Source: Geobacteraceae bacterium (GTDB lineage Bacteria; Desulfobacterota; Desulfuromonadia; Geobacterales; Geobacteraceae). From it: a stretch of 64,000 nt of DNA. The translations under genes and the position numbers were made by a program. Location of the stretch: the NCBI GenBank assembly GCA_009773645.1, contig WSYB01000001.1, forward strand, positions 162,644 through 226,643, in the 5' to 3' direction. Below are positions 35,646 through 43,384 of this stretch, piece by piece (the first letter of the stretch is position 1; the number at the start of each line of letters is the position of its first letter). A model generated the notes under the pieces. That model was not told the DNA's origin and did no database searches. It was given only the letters and a program-made list of their open reading frames with translations.

Positions 35646-36563
35646 TCACCCCTCTCGCCAGCGCTTGAAGGTACCGACAATCATGCCGCATGAATGACTG
35701 GCGGTCATTGCCTCACGTAAAACCCGCGGTCTGCCGGTGAGCACCATCGCAACAACACGGACGGCCTTCCGAAGCGTCTGTGGAAACAGATAGAACGGAA
35801 CACCACAAAGAGTATTCCCGGAAACCGGCAGGTCCCACAGACCCTTCTTGACCCCCTCCGCATAGTGGAGTTTCAGAAAATTGGTTCGACAAAGCCGCCA
35901 CGGCTCCACGAAATGTTCAACCGCCATGTCGGGTCTGAAACGCATCCTTACACCGCGCTGAAGCAACGCGTTGAACATCATCACATCCTCACCGCCACCA
36001 ACCCCCTTACCCTCACGGTTGTAACGGTGATCATACCGGAGACCGTCACGGAAAAGGGCCGTTCGGTACGCGACATTTGCCGTCCAAACCGGGGTTGAAG
36101 CGTCGGTTATCCAGAAGGGATCAGGACCGTAGTCTACCTCCGCCAAGAAGCAGAGCAGTTCATCCCCCAGCCACGTTGGACGCTCATATGGTTCGAACTT
36201 TACCCTTACCCGTCCGCCGACGCACTCGGCCTCCTCACGCTCCAGAGCATCAACCGCAGCGGCCAGCATCCCGGGAAGAGGCAGTTCGTCATCGTCCATA
36301 AAAACTACGTAGTCGCTGCCGAGTGCTTCATCCACCGCCCGGTTCCGAGAGGGAACGATCCCCTGTTTCATCTCTGTCACAAAACGAAGTGGCGGTCCGG
36401 CTTGTTCTGCCAGACCGGTCAGCACCTCGACTGTGTTGTCGCGGCTGTTGTTGTTCACCATAAGCAGCTCATAGTGGATCGGGCATTCCTGATCTCGCAA
36501 GGCAGCTATCAGAGCTGGCAGTCGCTCGGCCCGGTTATACGTACAGACGGCAACTGTTAGCAT
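35646..36563 (-). CDS. GT2 family glycosyltransferase
   Basis: A 305-residue GT-A enzyme. LTVAVCTYNRAERLPALIAAL, VFMDDDELPLPGML (metal motif) and GGGEDVMMFNALLQRGVRM (base segment) define it. The last 60 residues contain a hydrophobic helix, so it is probably membrane-associated. The ATG overlaps the preceding Core-2-like gene by seven bases. Acceptor and donor are unknown. Confidence 0.87.
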   Translation of the reverse strand: MLTVAVCTYNRAERLPALIAALRDQECPIHYELLMVNNNSRDNTVEVLTGLAEQAGPPLRFVTEMKQGIVPSRNRAVDEALGSDYVVFMDDDELPLPGMLAAAVDALEREEAECVGGRVRVKFEPYERPTWLGDELLCFLAEVDYGPDPFWITDASTPVWTANVAYRTALFRDGLRYDHRYNREGKGVGGGEDVMMFNALLQRGVRMRFRPDMAVEHFVEPWRLCRTNFLKLHYAEGVKKGLWDLPVSGNTLCGVPFYLFPQTLRKAVRVVAMVLTGRPRVLREAMTASHSCGMIVGTFKRWREG

Positions 36564-37549
36564 GTACCATTATTTCCTGTACTCACATTATTGTTCCCTA
36601 TATGCTCATCCAACATATCTAGAACTTTTGTATCAACATTTACATCAAACTTCCGAGCAAAATGCCGATCTGATAATATTATTGACGAGAAATCCGTGGA
36701 AGTTAGAGTATCTGGATGTGCTGCATCAGATCGAGACCATGAAATGAAACGCTTATAGTCATTACATATATTTAATTTATTATTATTGAGTAAAATTGTG
36801 TGAAAAAAAGCCTCGTCTGGGATAAGTGTAAATCTGAAATAATCTACATAGCTTGGATTGCTATCGACATAACTAATTATATAATCATAAGCATTTTTGT
36901 TAATGGTAAACCATTGTGCTCCTCCGTAACACTCAAAATCATTATTGAAAATATTATATTGTTTTCTAATACCTACTCTAGTGTTCAATTTCCTGGGTAA
37001 CGGCTTAATTCTTAAGAATGGTTGTATTTCATTAAAAATATTCCGCAGCTTTCTCCCTTTAAGTCTCAGAGTCTCTGGTATTTTATGCCAATATTTAAAC
37101 TTTGGTATTTTGAAATAATTAAAGTAGTATCTATTAAATCCTTCATATTTGTGCCAATACTTAGAGGTTAAAACTTTATCATACAGCAAGTAAGCATCAT
37201 AGGTACTTACTTCATAAAATTCTTTTATCTCGCGCAAAGGTTTGACAGGATAGTCTTGCCCTGATAACAAAAAGAGCCAATCGAACTTCATAGTCAATGA
37301 ATGAATTTTTTTTAAACAATGCAACATCATTCCAACCATGCTAAAATCGCCCCATTCAACACGCACATAGTCATCAATAAAATAAATGTCTTTCAGACTA
37401 CTGAAATAAGCTTTATCAAGTAGCGATGAAGAAGAATCATGATGAATGAAAATTAGTGAATCTGGATCTCCATTCTTTAAACAATATACTAATCTCTTGA
37501 CTTGGTCAGGATTATTATGTGAGCAAATCAAATAAAGTAACTTCGACAT
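36557..37549 (-). CDS. Core-2/I-branching-like glycosyltransferase (GT14)
   Basis: A 330-residue protein resembling the Core-2/I-branching beta-1,6-N-acetylglucosaminyltransferase family. MSKLLYLICSHNNPDQVKRLV, IFIHHDSSSSLLDKAYF, WGDFSMVGMMLHCLKKI, LFLLSGQDYPVKPL and ECYGGAQWFTINKNAYDYI are all family landmarks. In bacteria such enzymes add branching sugars to surface glycans; linkage here is not predictable. The gene is strikingly AT-rich, with many AAA/ATT codons, unlike its GC-richer neighbours, which suggests recent transfer. GAGGTC precedes the ATG. It is followed by a GT2 gene overlapping it by seven bases. Confidence 0.8.
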   Translation of the reverse strand: MSKLLYLICSHNNPDQVKRLVYCLKNGDPDSLIFIHHDSSSSLLDKAYFSSLKDIYFIDDYVRVEWGDFSMVGMMLHCLKKIHSLTMKFDWLFLLSGQDYPVKPLREIKEFYEVSTYDAYLLYDKVLTSKYWHKYEGFNRYYFNYFKIPKFKYWHKIPETLRLKGRKLRNIFNEIQPFLRIKPLPRKLNTRVGIRKQYNIFNNDFECYGGAQWFTINKNAYDYIISYVDSNPSYVDYFRFTLIPDEAFFHTILLNNNKLNICNDYKRFISWSRSDAAHPDTLTSTDFSSIILSDRHFARKFDVNVDTKVLDMLDEHIGNNNVSTGNNGTC

Positions 37550-37573: not shown

Positions 37574-38500
37574 TCATCTATCACTAAAATATTTTACTAT
37601 TTTAACGTGTACACAATATGGCAGATATGAAAGCAATATATACTTCAAGTCAACCTTTAACCCGAATTTTCCTAGTAAACCAGCACGAAAAATTTCACGT
37701 GCTGATCGGATATTATTCCCCCAGTAGAAATTTAACCCCTGGTTAAGCAATCGTCTGTCAACTAACTCTTTCACTTCATTTCTTTCGAAACGCGAGGAAA
37801 CTTCAGGGTGTTTTGTAAGGAACTCTCGCTTGACTTTTCTCTCAGAAATAGCACTCTGCACTGCATTGTCTGATGCCTGTCCTTCGTCATGAAAATGATA
37901 GAAGGCCATAACTTCAGGAACACGCACAATAGGCCTGCGCGTAGCAACCCGCAGCCAAATGGCATAATCTTCTGCATGTGTTAGTGATTCATCGAAGAGT
38001 TGACGGGCTTCCCCCAGAGCGCTGCGTCGGACGAGGACCGCATGGATAGGCCAAGGACAGCACCGCAAGAGGATTTCCAGCTTTCCTTCTGACTCATAAT
38101 CGGGAGGTATATACGGTTCTCCCTGGGGTCCGGGCAACCCGACTTTCTGCCACCCACAGTAGGCGAGCACCGCTTCGGAGTTTTCCTCAAGGGCACTATG
38201 GAGCTTTTCCAGACAATCTTCACGCCAAGTATCGTCGGCATCGAGAAAAGCCACGAATTCCCCTGTCGCCTCCGTAAGCCCCCGATTACGAGCTCGCGAC
38301 ACACCCTTACGAGGCTCATTAATAACGCGTAGCCTACCGTCGTTGAAATTCTCCGGAATCCTCCTCGTGCCGTCGGTTGAGCCGTTGTCAACCACGATCA
38401 GCTCAAAATCGCCATACGTCTGCCCCAGTACGCTACCGATGCCGCGAGCAATATACTTCTCGGCATTCAGACAGGGCATAATGACCGATATCACCGCCAC
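37574..38500 (-). CDS. GT2 family glycosyltransferase
   Basis: About 308 residues of GT-A type: AVISVIMPCLNAEKYIARGI, ELIVVDNGSTDGT, AFLDADDTWREDCLEKL (DxDD metal motif) and THAEDYAIWLRVATRRP (base segment). I chose the GTG at 38500, with GAGAGA upstream and five bases after the previous stop. The C-terminal third is helical and moderately AT-rich. It sits next to the AT-rich Core-2-like gene and may have arrived with it. Confidence 0.85.
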   Translation of the reverse strand: MAVISVIMPCLNAEKYIARGIGSVLGQTYGDFELIVVDNGSTDGTRRIPENFNDGRLRVINEPRKGVSRARNRGLTEATGEFVAFLDADDTWREDCLEKLHSALEENSEAVLAYCGWQKVGLPGPQGEPYIPPDYESEGKLEILLRCCPWPIHAVLVRRSALGEARQLFDESLTHAEDYAIWLRVATRRPIVRVPEVMAFYHFHDEGQASDNAVQSAISERKVKREFLTKHPEVSSRFERNEVKELVDRRLLNQGLNFYWGNNIRSAREIFRAGLLGKFGLKVDLKYILLSYLPYCVHVKIVKYFSDR

Positions 38501-38504
38501 GGAA

Positions 38505-40961
38505 CTATCTCTCAACCAGCTTGTTGTTAGCGGCGAAATCGGCCAGGTACTTTTCGGCGTACTCCACCATAAGGTTTTCCATCTTTGCCCGGGGCAAAAA
38601 CTTCTCCGCATAGCTGTTCACCGGCTGTTCCTTGGGCCAGTCGGTGCGGTAGAAGCGGACTACGCGCGGGACCTTGTAATTGTCGTCAGAGATGTAGAGA
38701 TCGCCGTTCGGCGCCACTGACGGACTGCTATTGCCGTGATAAAAGTGAGAATCGAATTTCCACCCCGGCCTTGGAGGCCAACGATGCTCTTCCTCCGAAT
38801 CCAAGAAACTTGTTACAAACCCGTCGTGATAGCGCCGTATTCCCGAATGATCCCAGCCACCGTTGTAGATGGCTCCAGTGCGTGGGCACTGGGTCTGCCA
38901 GAGGGTCGAGGTGAAAAGCAGCGAGCGTGCATCGGCTGGTCCGTCGATGAGCACCGTATCCTGATGCCTGTTCCAGGCAGCACCGGTGGTGGCCTTCTGC
39001 CAGCTGCCGTCAGCAGCCATGCTGTCGTAAAGGGTTACCACCTTTCCCGTTCCGGTATCGATCGACTGCATCCGCCCGGGGCTGCTTCCGCAAGGGCCAC
39101 AGCAGCCGCCATGCTGGGCGTTGAAAATGTCCCCTTCAGCACCGACACAGGTACCACCGTGGGAGCCGGGACCATCACTTCCGGTACGAAAATTCTTCGG
39201 CACAACTCCATCAAGCGTCAACCGTCGTAGCAAACTGCCCGACTGCAGGTCATAGAGGGCAAGGCTCTGAAACGCATTATTCTCTTCATAGGCCTCCCGA
39301 TCAGAAAACCATGCGGATTTGCCATTTGGTGCGATGAGCGGCCGACGGCCCACCAGCCCCGGGCCAGGGAGGTTGACGTTCTTTACGTCCCCTTCGGTTC
39401 GCACGACGAACAGAGGGGCTCGTCTACCATCCTTAGCCGGTGCAATTTCGAGTTCACCTCCCGCAGGGCTCTTTACTTTTCGGTACATACTGTTCCAGTC
39501 GAGCACCGCCGGGAGGTGGAATACCAGCCCCGTTTTCAGGCAACGGTAAGGAAGAAGCTTCTCAACGTACCGCCATTTCTTCCCTTGGATAAAGTAGAGC
39601 CTGCCAGTGACCGGATCGAGGGCAGACTTCGCTCCCAGGACAAGTCGCGCATCCTCACCAACTCCATCGGTGTCTCCTCTTTCGCGTGGCTTGCCGATGA
39701 CGCTGAGTTTTTTTGAGGTCGGATCGTAGTGAATTATCGCTTCGTCGGCCAAGGCGTATACGTCGGTCACCTCACCACCACCAGGTGCCCACACGAAACA
39801 CATTCCCCAGAAACGTGCTCCCCAGCGGCGGAGGATATCGCCATGGGTCTTTTTCCCCTTCGAGCTGATCTGCTCTGCCAGCGAATCTGGCACACGAAAC
39901 ACCTCTTCCCACTTCCAGGTTCCAGGAGAAAGGATGCGACAGGTACTCTTTGGCCCATACCAGCTCTCTCCCCACCTTACACGATACCACTTTTCACGTT
40001 CAGCCAAGCTCTTTGGATACGGCCGTTCTTCCTTATAGCCCCACTCCTTCAGGGTCCACTCGCGGCCGGCCGAATCCTTCTCCTTCCGCACGGTGGAAGC
40101 GGCTTTTTCTTCGGCCCCAAAAACCACATTCCCCACAAAAACCGCTGCCAGGATAATCGACATCGCAGTCATCAACCCCCCCCCCGCCCGTTCAAGCAAG
40201 CGCCTACCGTAGTAGCGCAGGGAAGTCATAATACTACCGTCATTGTTACCGTAGGCTAGCTTCCGTATAAACCTCGGCAGGGTATCTGTCCCGTAGATGT
40301 CGAGACGCCGCAGGGCGAGATGGTTTATGTCCGCCCCATTGAAGCCCGACATGGTCGTACAGGCTGTAAGATAGCCGGCCTCCCGCACCAGGGCGACAAC
40401 AGCCTCGTTCATCTCACCGTAGGGATATGAAAAATGCCGCACCGGCACTTCGAGCCGTTCCTCCATCACCCGCTTGGATTCCCTCATTTCAGTCAGCGCA
40501 TCCGCCGGCGCCAGTTCCGTAAGCCGTCGGTGGCTCACCGTATGGGAGCCGAACGTAACGCCGCCCCGTAGCATCTCCGCCACATTGTCCCACGTCAGGA
40601 GCCAACGCTCCGGCCCGCCGCACGCCACGTCCCATGCATTCGTCCCGCCGACACATCCGGTCACCAGAAACACGGTTGCTGGAAAGCCGCACCTTTGCAG
40701 AATCGGAAAGGCAGCGGCGAAGTTATCCGCATAGCCGTCGTCAAACGTAATGACCACCGGCCGGAACGGCAGTACGCCTTTCCCCGCCGCCACCTCGGCC
40801 AGCAGATCAAGCGAAACAGGCGTGTACTCGTCTTCGCGGAGAAACTCCATCTGCCGCTCGAACTCCGACAACGGGAGGCAGATTGATCGCTCGCGGGCAT
40901 CGGACGGCTCTGCGATGCTGTGGTACATGAGGATGGGAACGCGTAATGTGGTCATCGCCAT
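38505..40961 (-). CDS. polysaccharide deacetylase joined in frame to a secreted propeller-like protein
   Basis: An 818-codon frame made of two unlike halves. Residues 1-260 are a NodB-type polysaccharide deacetylase: PILMYHSIAEP, VVITFDDGYADNF (catalytic and metal Asp), FGSHTVSHRRL (metal His pair) and HFSYPYGEMNE. Residues 264-283 read MTAMSIILAAVFVGNVVFGA, a good signal peptide, followed by about 530 residues with a repeated beta-propeller look (YALADEAIIHYDPTSKKLSVIG, LALYDLQSGSLLRRL, SVAPNGDLYISDDNYKVP). The halves meet at a run of ten G residues (40176-40185). With nine G residues the first frame would stop at TGA overlapping the ATG of the second (TGATG). So the two are probably coupled genes, fused by tract-length change or by a sequence error. 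Confidence 0.75.
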   Translation of the reverse strand: MAMTTLRVPILMYHSIAEPSDARERSICLPLSEFERQMEFLREDEYTPVSLDLLAEVAAGKGVLPFRPVVITFDDGYADNFAAAFPILQRCGFPATVFLVTGCVGGTNAWDVACGGPERWLLTWDNVAEMLRGGVTFGSHTVSHRRLTELAPADALTEMRESKRVMEERLEVPVRHFSYPYGEMNEAVVALVREAGYLTACTTMSGFNGADINHLALRRLDIYGTDTLPRFIRKLAYGNNDGSIMTSLRYYGRRLLERAGGGLMTAMSIILAAVFVGNVVFGAEEKAASTVRKEKDSAGREWTLKEWGYKEERPYPKSLAEREKWYRVRWGESWYGPKSTCRILSPGTWKWEEVFRVPDSLAEQISSKGKKTHGDILRRWGARFWGMCFVWAPGGGEVTDVYALADEAIIHYDPTSKKLSVIGKPRERGDTDGVGEDARLVLGAKSALDPVTGRLYFIQGKKWRYVEKLLPYRCLKTGLVFHLPAVLDWNSMYRKVKSPAGGELEIAPAKDGRRAPLFVVRTEGDVKNVNLPGPGLVGRRPLIAPNGKSAWFSDREAYEENNAFQSLALYDLQSGSLLRRLTLDGVVPKNFRTGSDGPGSHGGTCVGAEGDIFNAQHGGCCGPCGSSPGRMQSIDTGTGKVVTLYDSMAADGSWQKATTGAAWNRHQDTVLIDGPADARSLLFTSTLWQTQCPRTGAIYNGGWDHSGIRRYHDGFVTSFLDSEEEHRWPPRPGWKFDSHFYHGNSSPSVAPNGDLYISDDNYKVPRVVRFYRTDWPKEQPVNSYAEKFLPRAKMENLMVEYAEKYLADFAANNKLVER
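40176..40185 (-). other. G10 tract at deacetylase/propeller junction
   Basis: Ten C residues on the plus strand, read as GCG-GGG-GGG-GGG in the fused frame. Removing one base would place TGA immediately after the tract and separate the deacetylase from the following signal-peptide-bearing frame starting at ATG 40172. A run of this length is prone to slipped-strand change and also to sequencing error. Confidence 0.9.
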
Positions 40962-41040: not shown

Positions 41041-42123
41041 TCACTTGATAATCTCACTCCTTAGAGATTCGAGATAACCTCTGCCGAATTTCAGGTCAGG
41101 CTCCATATGATTACCCTCGGCCCACTCGTTCCATGCCTTAATAAAGAGAATTTTTTTCTCAAACGGTTTCCCTTCTGATACCTGCAACGCCTTTATCACC
41201 TGCTGTCGAAACAGTTCAGGAGTGGACCCGTGAAGTACAAGGCCATTTCGCCCGCTTCGCGGAGTGTTGTCCCAATTGGGGATTAAGCAAGGAAAATTCT
41301 CAATCCCGTCAACAGGGTCTTGAATCATGCCCAGACATTCATCGGAATAATTATATATCGCAGGAGCATTCGTCCTGATGCGTTGCCATCTTTCGAGCCG
41401 CTTGAGAGGCTGGCGTCGAGAAATCCAGCAGGTTTTCCATTTATGCAGATTTGGCAGCTTCGGAGTGATTGAGCCGTCGAACCCGAACTCGGCTGGATTC
41501 CAGAAGGGGTCTTCATGCACGCCAACGAAGTAAAGCCCACTGATTCCTGCCTTTGCAGTCATGTTTCTCCAGAAATCGGTTACCCTCTTCGGCTCGGGTA
41601 GCTCATGGGGACGGTAAATAATGAACAGTGGCTTTCCATCGACCTTGACATATCGTTTGTCAGAAAAAGCCCTGAGCAGAAAATCAAAGTGTGCCCGATG
41701 ATCCTCCTCACCCGGATAGGTCTGCTCGATCAGGATGTTGTTCGGCTGGCCGTGCCAGATGCCAGTCCAGGTCTGGTTAGCCCAGCAGATACAGAAAGGA
41801 AAGTCCGGCTCACCAGACCCGAGAACCTCATTGAACGGACGCTCAAGAATGCGTTGGCCGCCAAACCAGTAATGGTAGTAACAGAATGCCTCCACCCCGT
41901 ATTCGCGTGCCAGATCGGCCTGCGCAATCCGAGTTTCGGGGACGCGCAAATCGTAGAACCCAAGATCAGCTGGAATGTGTGGCTGGTAGTGACCCTTAAA
42001 GAGGGGTTTGGCTTTCGCTGAATTAGTCCATTCAGTGAAACCCCTTCCCCACCATTCATCATTTTCTGGAACGGGATGGTACTGGGGCAAATAAAATGCT
42101 ATGGCTCGTGCTCTCGTTTGCAT
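41041..42123 (-). CDS. WbsX-like protein (GH99-like domain)
   Basis: A 360-residue protein of the WbsX family: AIAFYLPQYHPVPENDEWWGRGFTEWTNSAKAKPLF is its hallmark, with EAFCYYHYWFGGQRILERPFNEVL and FIKAWNEWAEGNHMEPD at the C-terminus. The domain resembles glycoside hydrolase family 99 and is common in rhamnan/O-antigen loci, where it is usually annotated as glycosyl transferase; its chemistry is unproven. It is a close relative of the next gene upstream. I use ATG 42123; a GTG three codons upstream is possible. Confidence 0.85.
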   Translation of the reverse strand: MQTRARAIAFYLPQYHPVPENDEWWGRGFTEWTNSAKAKPLFKGHYQPHIPADLGFYDLRVPETRIAQADLAREYGVEAFCYYHYWFGGQRILERPFNEVLGSGEPDFPFCICWANQTWTGIWHGQPNNILIEQTYPGEEDHRAHFDFLLRAFSDKRYVKVDGKPLFIIYRPHELPEPKRVTDFWRNMTAKAGISGLYFVGVHEDPFWNPAEFGFDGSITPKLPNLHKWKTCWISRRQPLKRLERWQRIRTNAPAIYNYSDECLGMIQDPVDGIENFPCLIPNWDNTPRSGRNGLVLHGSTPELFRQQVIKALQVSEGKPFEKKILFIKAWNEWAEGNHMEPDLKFGRGYLESLRSEIIK

Positions 42124-42145
42124 ATATATCACTATAAAATGGGAA

Positions 42146-43384
42146 TTAGTACTTTCTTCTGGTCATAACCTTGATCAATTCAACTTGCTCTGCAAGAACC
42201 TCTTTCGCTTTCCAGTAACAGGACCTAAACGGTGATTTTATTAAAGGGCTTAAGGCCGGCTTATAGGATTCGAGAAGCGACATAGCCTGCTGCTCAACGC
42301 TCAGAGCCCTTTGAGTTGCTTCAAGATAAGCATGTCCCCATTTCTGATCGGGTTCTAGGTGGTTGCCTTCGGCCCACTCGTTCCATGCATTTACGAAAAC
42401 AATTCTCTCATCACCGGTAAAACGAACCTTTGTTCGGATCACAACCTCTTTTAGCCAATTTTCATATTTTTCAGGCGTCGAGTCATAAAAGATGTAGGCA
42501 TTCTTCTTCCGGGCACTATTGTCCCATGAAGGAGTCACACAGTGAAAACGTTTGAATGGCGGTGTTGGTCTGTTCAACATGCTACGTGCCATACTCTGGT
42601 AGCTGAAAACACGATTTTCAATATATCCAGGAGCTAGGAGGCCGAGTTTTGCGAGTAGCTTGTGGGTATTTCCTCCAAATATTCGCTTCCCCCAAGCACC
42701 ATTGAAAGGGGCAAATTCGACTGTAGCATCGAAGCCAATATCTTCAGGATTGCCTGAATCACCAAAACTTTCAACTCGTACAAGATACAAATCTTTGATA
42801 CCAGCACGTCTTGCTTCGTTTCTCCAGATATCAGCTGTATTTTTCGGGCCTGGGAGAAGCCCTGTACGATAAACAAGGAAAAGCGGCTTCCCATCGACCC
42901 GTATGTATCGTTCATCACGAAAAGCGGGCAATAGCGACCGAATATGGTTTATATCATCGTCTATACTGTATTTCTGTTCTAGAAGAATTTGGTGGTCACT
43001 GCCGTCCCATGTCCTTGTCCAGTTCTCATTTGCCCAACAGAGGCAGAATGGGTAATTAGGGTAATGAGAAGACAGCACCTCATTGAACGGCCGTTCCAAG
43101 ATTTTGCGTCCGTTGAACCAGTAATGATAGTAACAAAACCCACGTATTCCATACTGCCTTGCAAGATCTGCTTGAGCTTCCCGAGTCTCCGATGCACGTA
43201 AATCATAGAATCCAAGGTCAGCAGGGAGATGAGGCTGGTAGTGGTCCGGGAACAACGGACGTGCCTTTACTACATTGGTCCATTCAGTGAACCCCCTGCC
43301 CCACCATTCATCATTTTCCGGAATCGGGTGGAATTGGGGGAGATAAAAAGCAATAAGTCTTAAATCGTTTTCAGTCATAGTCAC
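42146..43384 (-). CDS. WbsX-like protein (GH99-like domain)
   Basis: A 412-residue WbsX-family protein with LIAFYLPQFHPIPENDEWWGRGFTEWTNVVKARPLF, GFCYYHYWFNGRKILERPFNEVL, ADIWRNEARRAGIKDLYLV and FVNAWNEWAEGNHLEPD. It shares most landmarks with the neighbouring 41041-42123 gene, implying a tandem duplication followed by divergence. An extra C-terminal stretch of about 45 residues is helical and basic. GAAGG lies seven bases before the GTG at 43384; ATG 43378 is an alternative start. Confidence 0.85.
   Translation of the reverse strand: MTMTENDLRLIAFYLPQFHPIPENDEWWGRGFTEWTNVVKARPLFPDHYQPHLPADLGFYDLRASETREAQADLARQYGIRGFCYYHYWFNGRKILERPFNEVLSSHYPNYPFCLCWANENWTRTWDGSDHQILLEQKYSIDDDINHIRSLLPAFRDERYIRVDGKPLFLVYRTGLLPGPKNTADIWRNEARRAGIKDLYLVRVESFGDSGNPEDIGFDATVEFAPFNGAWGKRIFGGNTHKLLAKLGLLAPGYIENRVFSYQSMARSMLNRPTPPFKRFHCVTPSWDNSARKKNAYIFYDSTPEKYENWLKEVVIRTKVRFTGDERIVFVNAWNEWAEGNHLEPDQKWGHAYLEATQRALSVEQQAMSLLESYKPALSPLIKSPFRSCYWKAKEVLAEQVELIKVMTRRKY

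Follow-up and report, generated by a model that had tools for sequence, protein, structure and literature searches.

How many proteins are encoded by the single long open reading frame at positions 38505 to 40961 (minus strand) of the 64,000-nucleotide stretch of DNA analyzed here, henceforth the window, given that a run of ten G residues lies within it? The assembly does contain what a first, sequence-only reading had described at this place, i.e., a minus-strand run of ten G (C at 40176-40185 of the plus strand) within a single frame of 818 aa that is open across the tract, with coding signal present on either side and the translation LRYYGRRLLE-RAGGG-LMTAMSIILAAVF at the seam. Equally correct was the claim about what the loss of one G would do: read from the sequence, the upstream frame would then end with E-R-A-G-G-G followed by a TGA (40174-40172) that shares one base with the ATG at 40172-40170. 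In silico, 9 G therefore give two proteins and 10 G give one frame. The features of the locus are as follows:

40172 to 40961, minus strand: polysaccharide deacetylase (NodB-like) gene (PF01522), 262 aa followed by TGA (40174-40172) with a 9-G tract, without a stop at the tract as assembled.
40176 to 40185, minus strand: G10 tract (C10 on the plus strand), forming the final Gly codons of the deacetylase gene and, judging from the sequence and computed 16S pairing, the likely Shine-Dalgarno sequence of the next gene.
40113 to 40163, minus strand: hydrophobic stretch MSIILAAVFVGNVVFGA with the top Kyte-Doolittle 17-residue mean, a predicted signal peptide if translation starts here and a predicted signal anchor if fused.
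38505 to 40172, minus strand: second gene of 555 aa, open reading frame from ATG 40172 (alternative ATG 40163), an orphan that is probably exported or membrane-inserted.
37574 to 38500, minus strand: GT2 glycosyltransferase (PF00535), the next gene, 45% to G066:C233:57310-58212.

We consider it likely that two neighboring genes in a polysaccharide operon have been joined into one frame at this seam by an accidental extra G. The split state would be the original one, comprising a NodB-family deacetylase (262 aa with 9 G) and a separate protein of 555 aa, and a single additional G would remove the stop codon of the deacetylase such that both genes are read as one frame. The accident may have been either a slippage indel or a base-call error, and we would give somewhat less than an even chance to a slippage indel that arose in the strain or population sequenced.

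The first half of the frame is, as had been claimed, a complete deacetylase of the NodB type. Polysacc_deac_1 (PF01522) matches residues 65-198 with 95.3 bits, compared to a gathering score of 23.1, and is the sole Pfam match of the 818-aa frame at E<=1. The TFDD and HxxxH motifs (D74, D75, H140, and H144), which we take to hold the metal and catalytic residues of the PF01522/NodB/CE4 family, all precede the tract and are shared, in an alignment with the closest relative, by the deacetylase of genome G066, so the first half appears to be a whole enzyme on its own. A complete domain ahead of the tract is what it has in common with PgaB/IcaB/NodB-like members of PF01522; unlike these relatives, it stays below every NCBIfam equivalog cut-off and carries a 555-aa tail as assembled. 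No named subfamily (PgaB, IcaB, NodB, or others) could be assigned, with the deacetylase scoring below the curated cut-off in all 12 of its NCBIfam matches. The enzyme has no export signal.

Matches to the deacetylase part (257 aa) were found in 93 of 97 genomes (own genome counted). To see where proteins of this kind usually end, the frame of each of 109 relatives (29 at loci L035-L063 and the best 80 of 564 confirmed loci in the genome_contigs collection) was read to its stop and the end point measured against query residue 257. All of them stop between -21 and +25 residues from this position (median -8), and on the same scale the 9-G product of 262 aa falls at +5 and the assembled product at +561; a 555-aa tail like the assembled one is found in 0 of the 109. 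This result weighs against a stable functional fusion, i.e., one bitopic protein in which a signal anchor connects a deacetylase in the cytoplasm to an outer domain, which would agree well with the open frame and the coding signal on both sides of the tract but which we regard as distinctly unlikely. Fusions of the deacetylase domain as such do exist, as is evident from long N-terminal extensions in some of the relatives.

The same comparison bears on recoding, in which slippage of RNA polymerase or the ribosome on the tract would yield separate and fused products from one length of DNA. Read from the sequence, a frame shifted by +1 at the Gly codons would indeed run straight into the TGA. However, the frame transition is not conserved as would be indicative of selection on a programmed frameshift, since the second half occurs in none of the relatives searched and all 109 relatives of the deacetylase end normally, and the relevant part of one paper on slippage deals with insertions at A or T runs (PMC5574713). 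We therefore view recoding as highly improbable. The seam rather fits the class of unconserved frame transitions for which a frame-transition survey, in the portion considered here, expects sequencing errors, indels, or gene overlaps as the cause (PMC3711429).

The arrangement of genes in the closest relative points in the same direction as the protein lengths. The deacetylase has its best match in G066, a genome of the same order but another family (41%, 207 bits, next best 119; 97 genomes), and so has the GT2 glycosyltransferase that follows the second half (45%, 272 bits, next best 129; 58 genomes). On contig C233 of G066, the deacetylase is a stand-alone protein of 258 aa ending in TGA, and the GT2 gene begins 45 bases past it with no gene in between. 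The second half thus sits where G066 has nothing and should be a separate gene that was either inserted here or lost in G066; the layout of G066 could also reflect a loss there, which is one point to hold against our preferred explanation. Taken together, the end points of 109 relatives and the gene order of G066 provide good support for the proposal of the sequence-only reading that the frame consists of two genes that belong apart.

The second half itself had been called a propeller protein, but this assignment could not be confirmed by any Pfam, NCBIfam, or credible PDB match. It has no match up to E=10 in Pfam and none up to E=5 in NCBIfam, its best PDB sequence match is an unrelated complex I subunit (E=0.46), and single-sequence structure prediction gave a mean pLDDT of 33.3, which is unusable. 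At E<=1e-3, no relative was found in 96 other genomes of relatives or in 394 other genomes of the phylum (partly overlapping the 96), and none was found in its own genome at E<=10. Scans of the genome_contigs and viral_contigs collections, which reach close relatives only, gave 5 pattern matches and 1 pattern match, respectively, none of them a relative, and neither the plasmids collection nor the 6 genomes behind the other loci contained one. In 294 genomes from the phylum of one of these other-locus genomes, 2 weak matches of 22 bits were obtained, neither of which was counted as a relative; one of them was discarded because it lies in a low-complexity frame. The second half is therefore best described, from its sequence, as a separate gene for a protein of unknown family that is probably exported. 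With no history shared with any deacetylase relative and no relatives of its own, it argues for the presence of two genes. The same lack of relatives also counts against the two-gene reading, in that no other genome could display the second gene standing alone.

The case for export was somewhat overstated in the sequence-only reading, which had credited the second half with a good signal peptide. The stretch MSIILAAVFVGNVVFGA is the most hydrophobic 17-residue segment of the whole 818-aa frame (mean 2.2, next elsewhere 1.4), and to this extent the description holds, but a product started at ATG 40172 has no K or R ahead of it. Sec signal peptides without K/R before the hydrophobic stretch are unusual. 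In the fused reading, RRLLER stands ahead of MSIILAAVFVGNVVFGA and, judging from the residues, would suit a signal anchor inserted with N-in/C-out topology. The objection that one product should hardly carry a signal in the middle of the protein thus went too far: a fused product is not absurd, and this feature speaks for the stable fusion and counts somewhat against the two-gene reading.

Another argument taken from the seam was that its stop/start overlap is exactly the style used elsewhere in the operon, which is an exaggeration because, based on predicted start codons, only 2 of the 8 other junctions overlap (by 4 and 7 nt) and none of the 8 shows a 1-nt TGATG. Although the coincidence of stop and start with 9 G is what is seen in overlapping genes and hence unfavorable to a stable fusion, the TGATG alone is weak evidence: in the long open reading frames of the window, TG or TA precedes 47 of 366 internal in-frame ATGs (13%). 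We therefore set it aside as proof of a gene boundary.

A stronger signal at the seam is the predicted ribosome-binding potential of the tract. The computed energy of pairing between the tract and an assumed 16S rRNA 3' end is -14.9 kcal/mol at 10 G and -14.4 kcal/mol at 9 G, ranging from -13.6 to -16.0 kcal/mol for 8 to 11 G, and this pairing surpasses 9 of the 10 other nearby starts that were checked. The tract ends 3 nt ahead of ATG 40172 and 12 nt ahead of ATG 40163. These computations make it plausible that, with 8 to 11 G, ribosomes bind at the tract to translate the second gene; the second protein would then probably be initiated at the seam in the joined as well as in the separate arrangement. 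Under the proposed joining of two genes, the tract would act as this binding site at any length and the second protein would probably be made in both tract states, such that tract length would mainly set the C-terminus of the deacetylase, which would either end after ERAGGG or carry the second protein as a tail. The strong computed Shine-Dalgarno pairing is thus another reason to read the locus as two genes and speaks against a stable fusion. A general enrichment of G tracts ahead of start codons is not seen: an ATG that opens at least 100 codons lies within 2-12 nt after 5 G tracts of the genome and after 4 C tracts, out of 57 each.

Is the length of ten believable at all? If the tenth G were a base-call or assembly error, the genome would have 9 G and two ordinary overlapping genes, which is a possibility that we find rather doubtful. 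Long G runs are error-prone in sequencing, the draft assembly comprises 78 contigs, and the 9-G reading gives an enzyme of normal length. We inspected the 66 G9 matches of the genome, which represent 57 distinct tracts (7 of them with at least 10 G), by scoring coding signal up to 240 bases on each side of every tract. Clear signal on both sides and on one strand was present at 29 tracts including the seam tract, of which 28 keep the frame and 1 changes it; the other 28 were uninformative (25 with weak coding signal, 2 between opposite strands, 1 at a contig edge). Leaving the seam aside, 27 of 28 informative tracts keep the frame, among them the 3 other informative G10 tracts, and the remaining one marks a real boundary between genes; none of the 28 looks miscalled. 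This suggests that miscalled G runs are uncommon in this assembly and weighs against an error, though a miscall rate of several percent is still compatible with 28 tracts and the seam tract was picked for looking odd.

The frame-changing tract is itself informative. At L067:1502-1516 (own genome, C45:21741-21755), a G9 tract lies where the gene for a histidine kinase (HAMP, HisKA, HATPase_c) meets that for an NtrC-type regulator, two separate genes that overlap by 4 nt just past the tract. Like the seam, this junction combines a G tract with overlapping stop and start codons, with the next gene starting 2 nt after the tract; unlike the seam, it has 9 G, separate genes, and a 4-nt overlap. Read from the sequence, one more G would join the frames of kinase and regulator. 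The same geometry with separate genes thus exists elsewhere in this genome, which further favors the two-gene reading. Elsewhere in the genome (L068:1499-1509 on contig C46), a G11 tract directly follows a lipobox-like VAGC in a frame of 199 codons, where a change in length would put the mature part out of frame.

A different view of the seam would be that of a selected length switch, in which slipped-strand mispairing moves cells back and forth between two separate products and their fusion; a slippage switch was one of the two alternatives offered by the sequence-only reading, the other being an assembled length off by one. The product of the operon is a polysaccharide, and in the relevant part of a study on Campylobacter jejuni, the tracts are mainly G9 and G10, which makes G9-G10 the usual size of switches in that organism (PMC8355987). 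Furthermore, a poly-G junction that splits or fuses neighbors has already been proposed for Helicobacter canadensis: according to the part of that study on HCAN_0660, this gene has a poly-G tract that ranged from G11 to G16 in the reads, and a change of frame there could merge the gene with HCAN_0661, a choice of two proteins or one that the authors called perhaps unprecedented (PMC2823697). The seam shares with this case a poly-G tract at a gene end where a frame change would merge the next gene, but differs from it in that a single length is seen in a single assembly and that the two genes being joined are unrelated (PMC2823697). A second parallel is offered by C. jejuni, where the relevant part of the same study suggests that the cj0045 tract may act on cj0044 via overlap of stop and start codons (PMC8355987). 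As at the seam, a G tract at the 3' end goes along with overlapping stop and next start in one tract state, but the cj0045 tract is thought to alter expression of the next gene through coupling, and no fusion is described in this part of the study (PMC8355987). In PMC2831843, nothing on gene fusion was found.

What speaks against a selected switch is that no conserved relative carries the tract and that the genome shows no clear enrichment of long G runs. In the window, 8 G8 matches compare to a shuffle mean of 5.26, with 22 of 100 shuffles reaching 8. Genome-wide, the 66 G9 matches compare to 90 or 30 expected from order-1 or order-2 Markov models, respectively, and the 9 G10 matches to 25 or 7, with both models trained on the window. 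The verdict thus depends on the model, and enrichment of long G runs is neither shown nor excluded. A selected length switch consequently appears unlikely to us.

In its most far-reaching form, the seam would be a gene end, the ribosome-binding site of the next gene, and a reversible switch in one, with 9 G giving a deacetylase free in the cytoplasm plus a partner that is exported and 10 G adding a deacetylase that this partner anchors to the membrane, a combination that we rate as improbable. If true, a polysaccharide-modifying enzyme would move between cytosol and membrane, and the G9 junction of L067, where an extra G would create a fused kinase-regulator, could make such switching a wider mode in this genome. 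Should tract length vary in living cells, the seam would represent a rare DNA switch that acts on protein architecture and location instead of on/off expression and that can be tested directly. If the tract is invariant, a one-base homopolymer difference would have created a false two-domain protein in the assembly, and the 818-aa frame should not count as evidence of domain fusion.

Two further observations concern the neighboring genes. The Core-2/I-branching-type glycosyltransferase at 36557-37549 of the window has 31.7% G+C compared to 52% for the window and was probably acquired from elsewhere. At 41041-43384, two adjacent frames are alike, both with WbsX glycosyltransferase-like starts that were recognized by Pfam for the second frame and by eye for the first.
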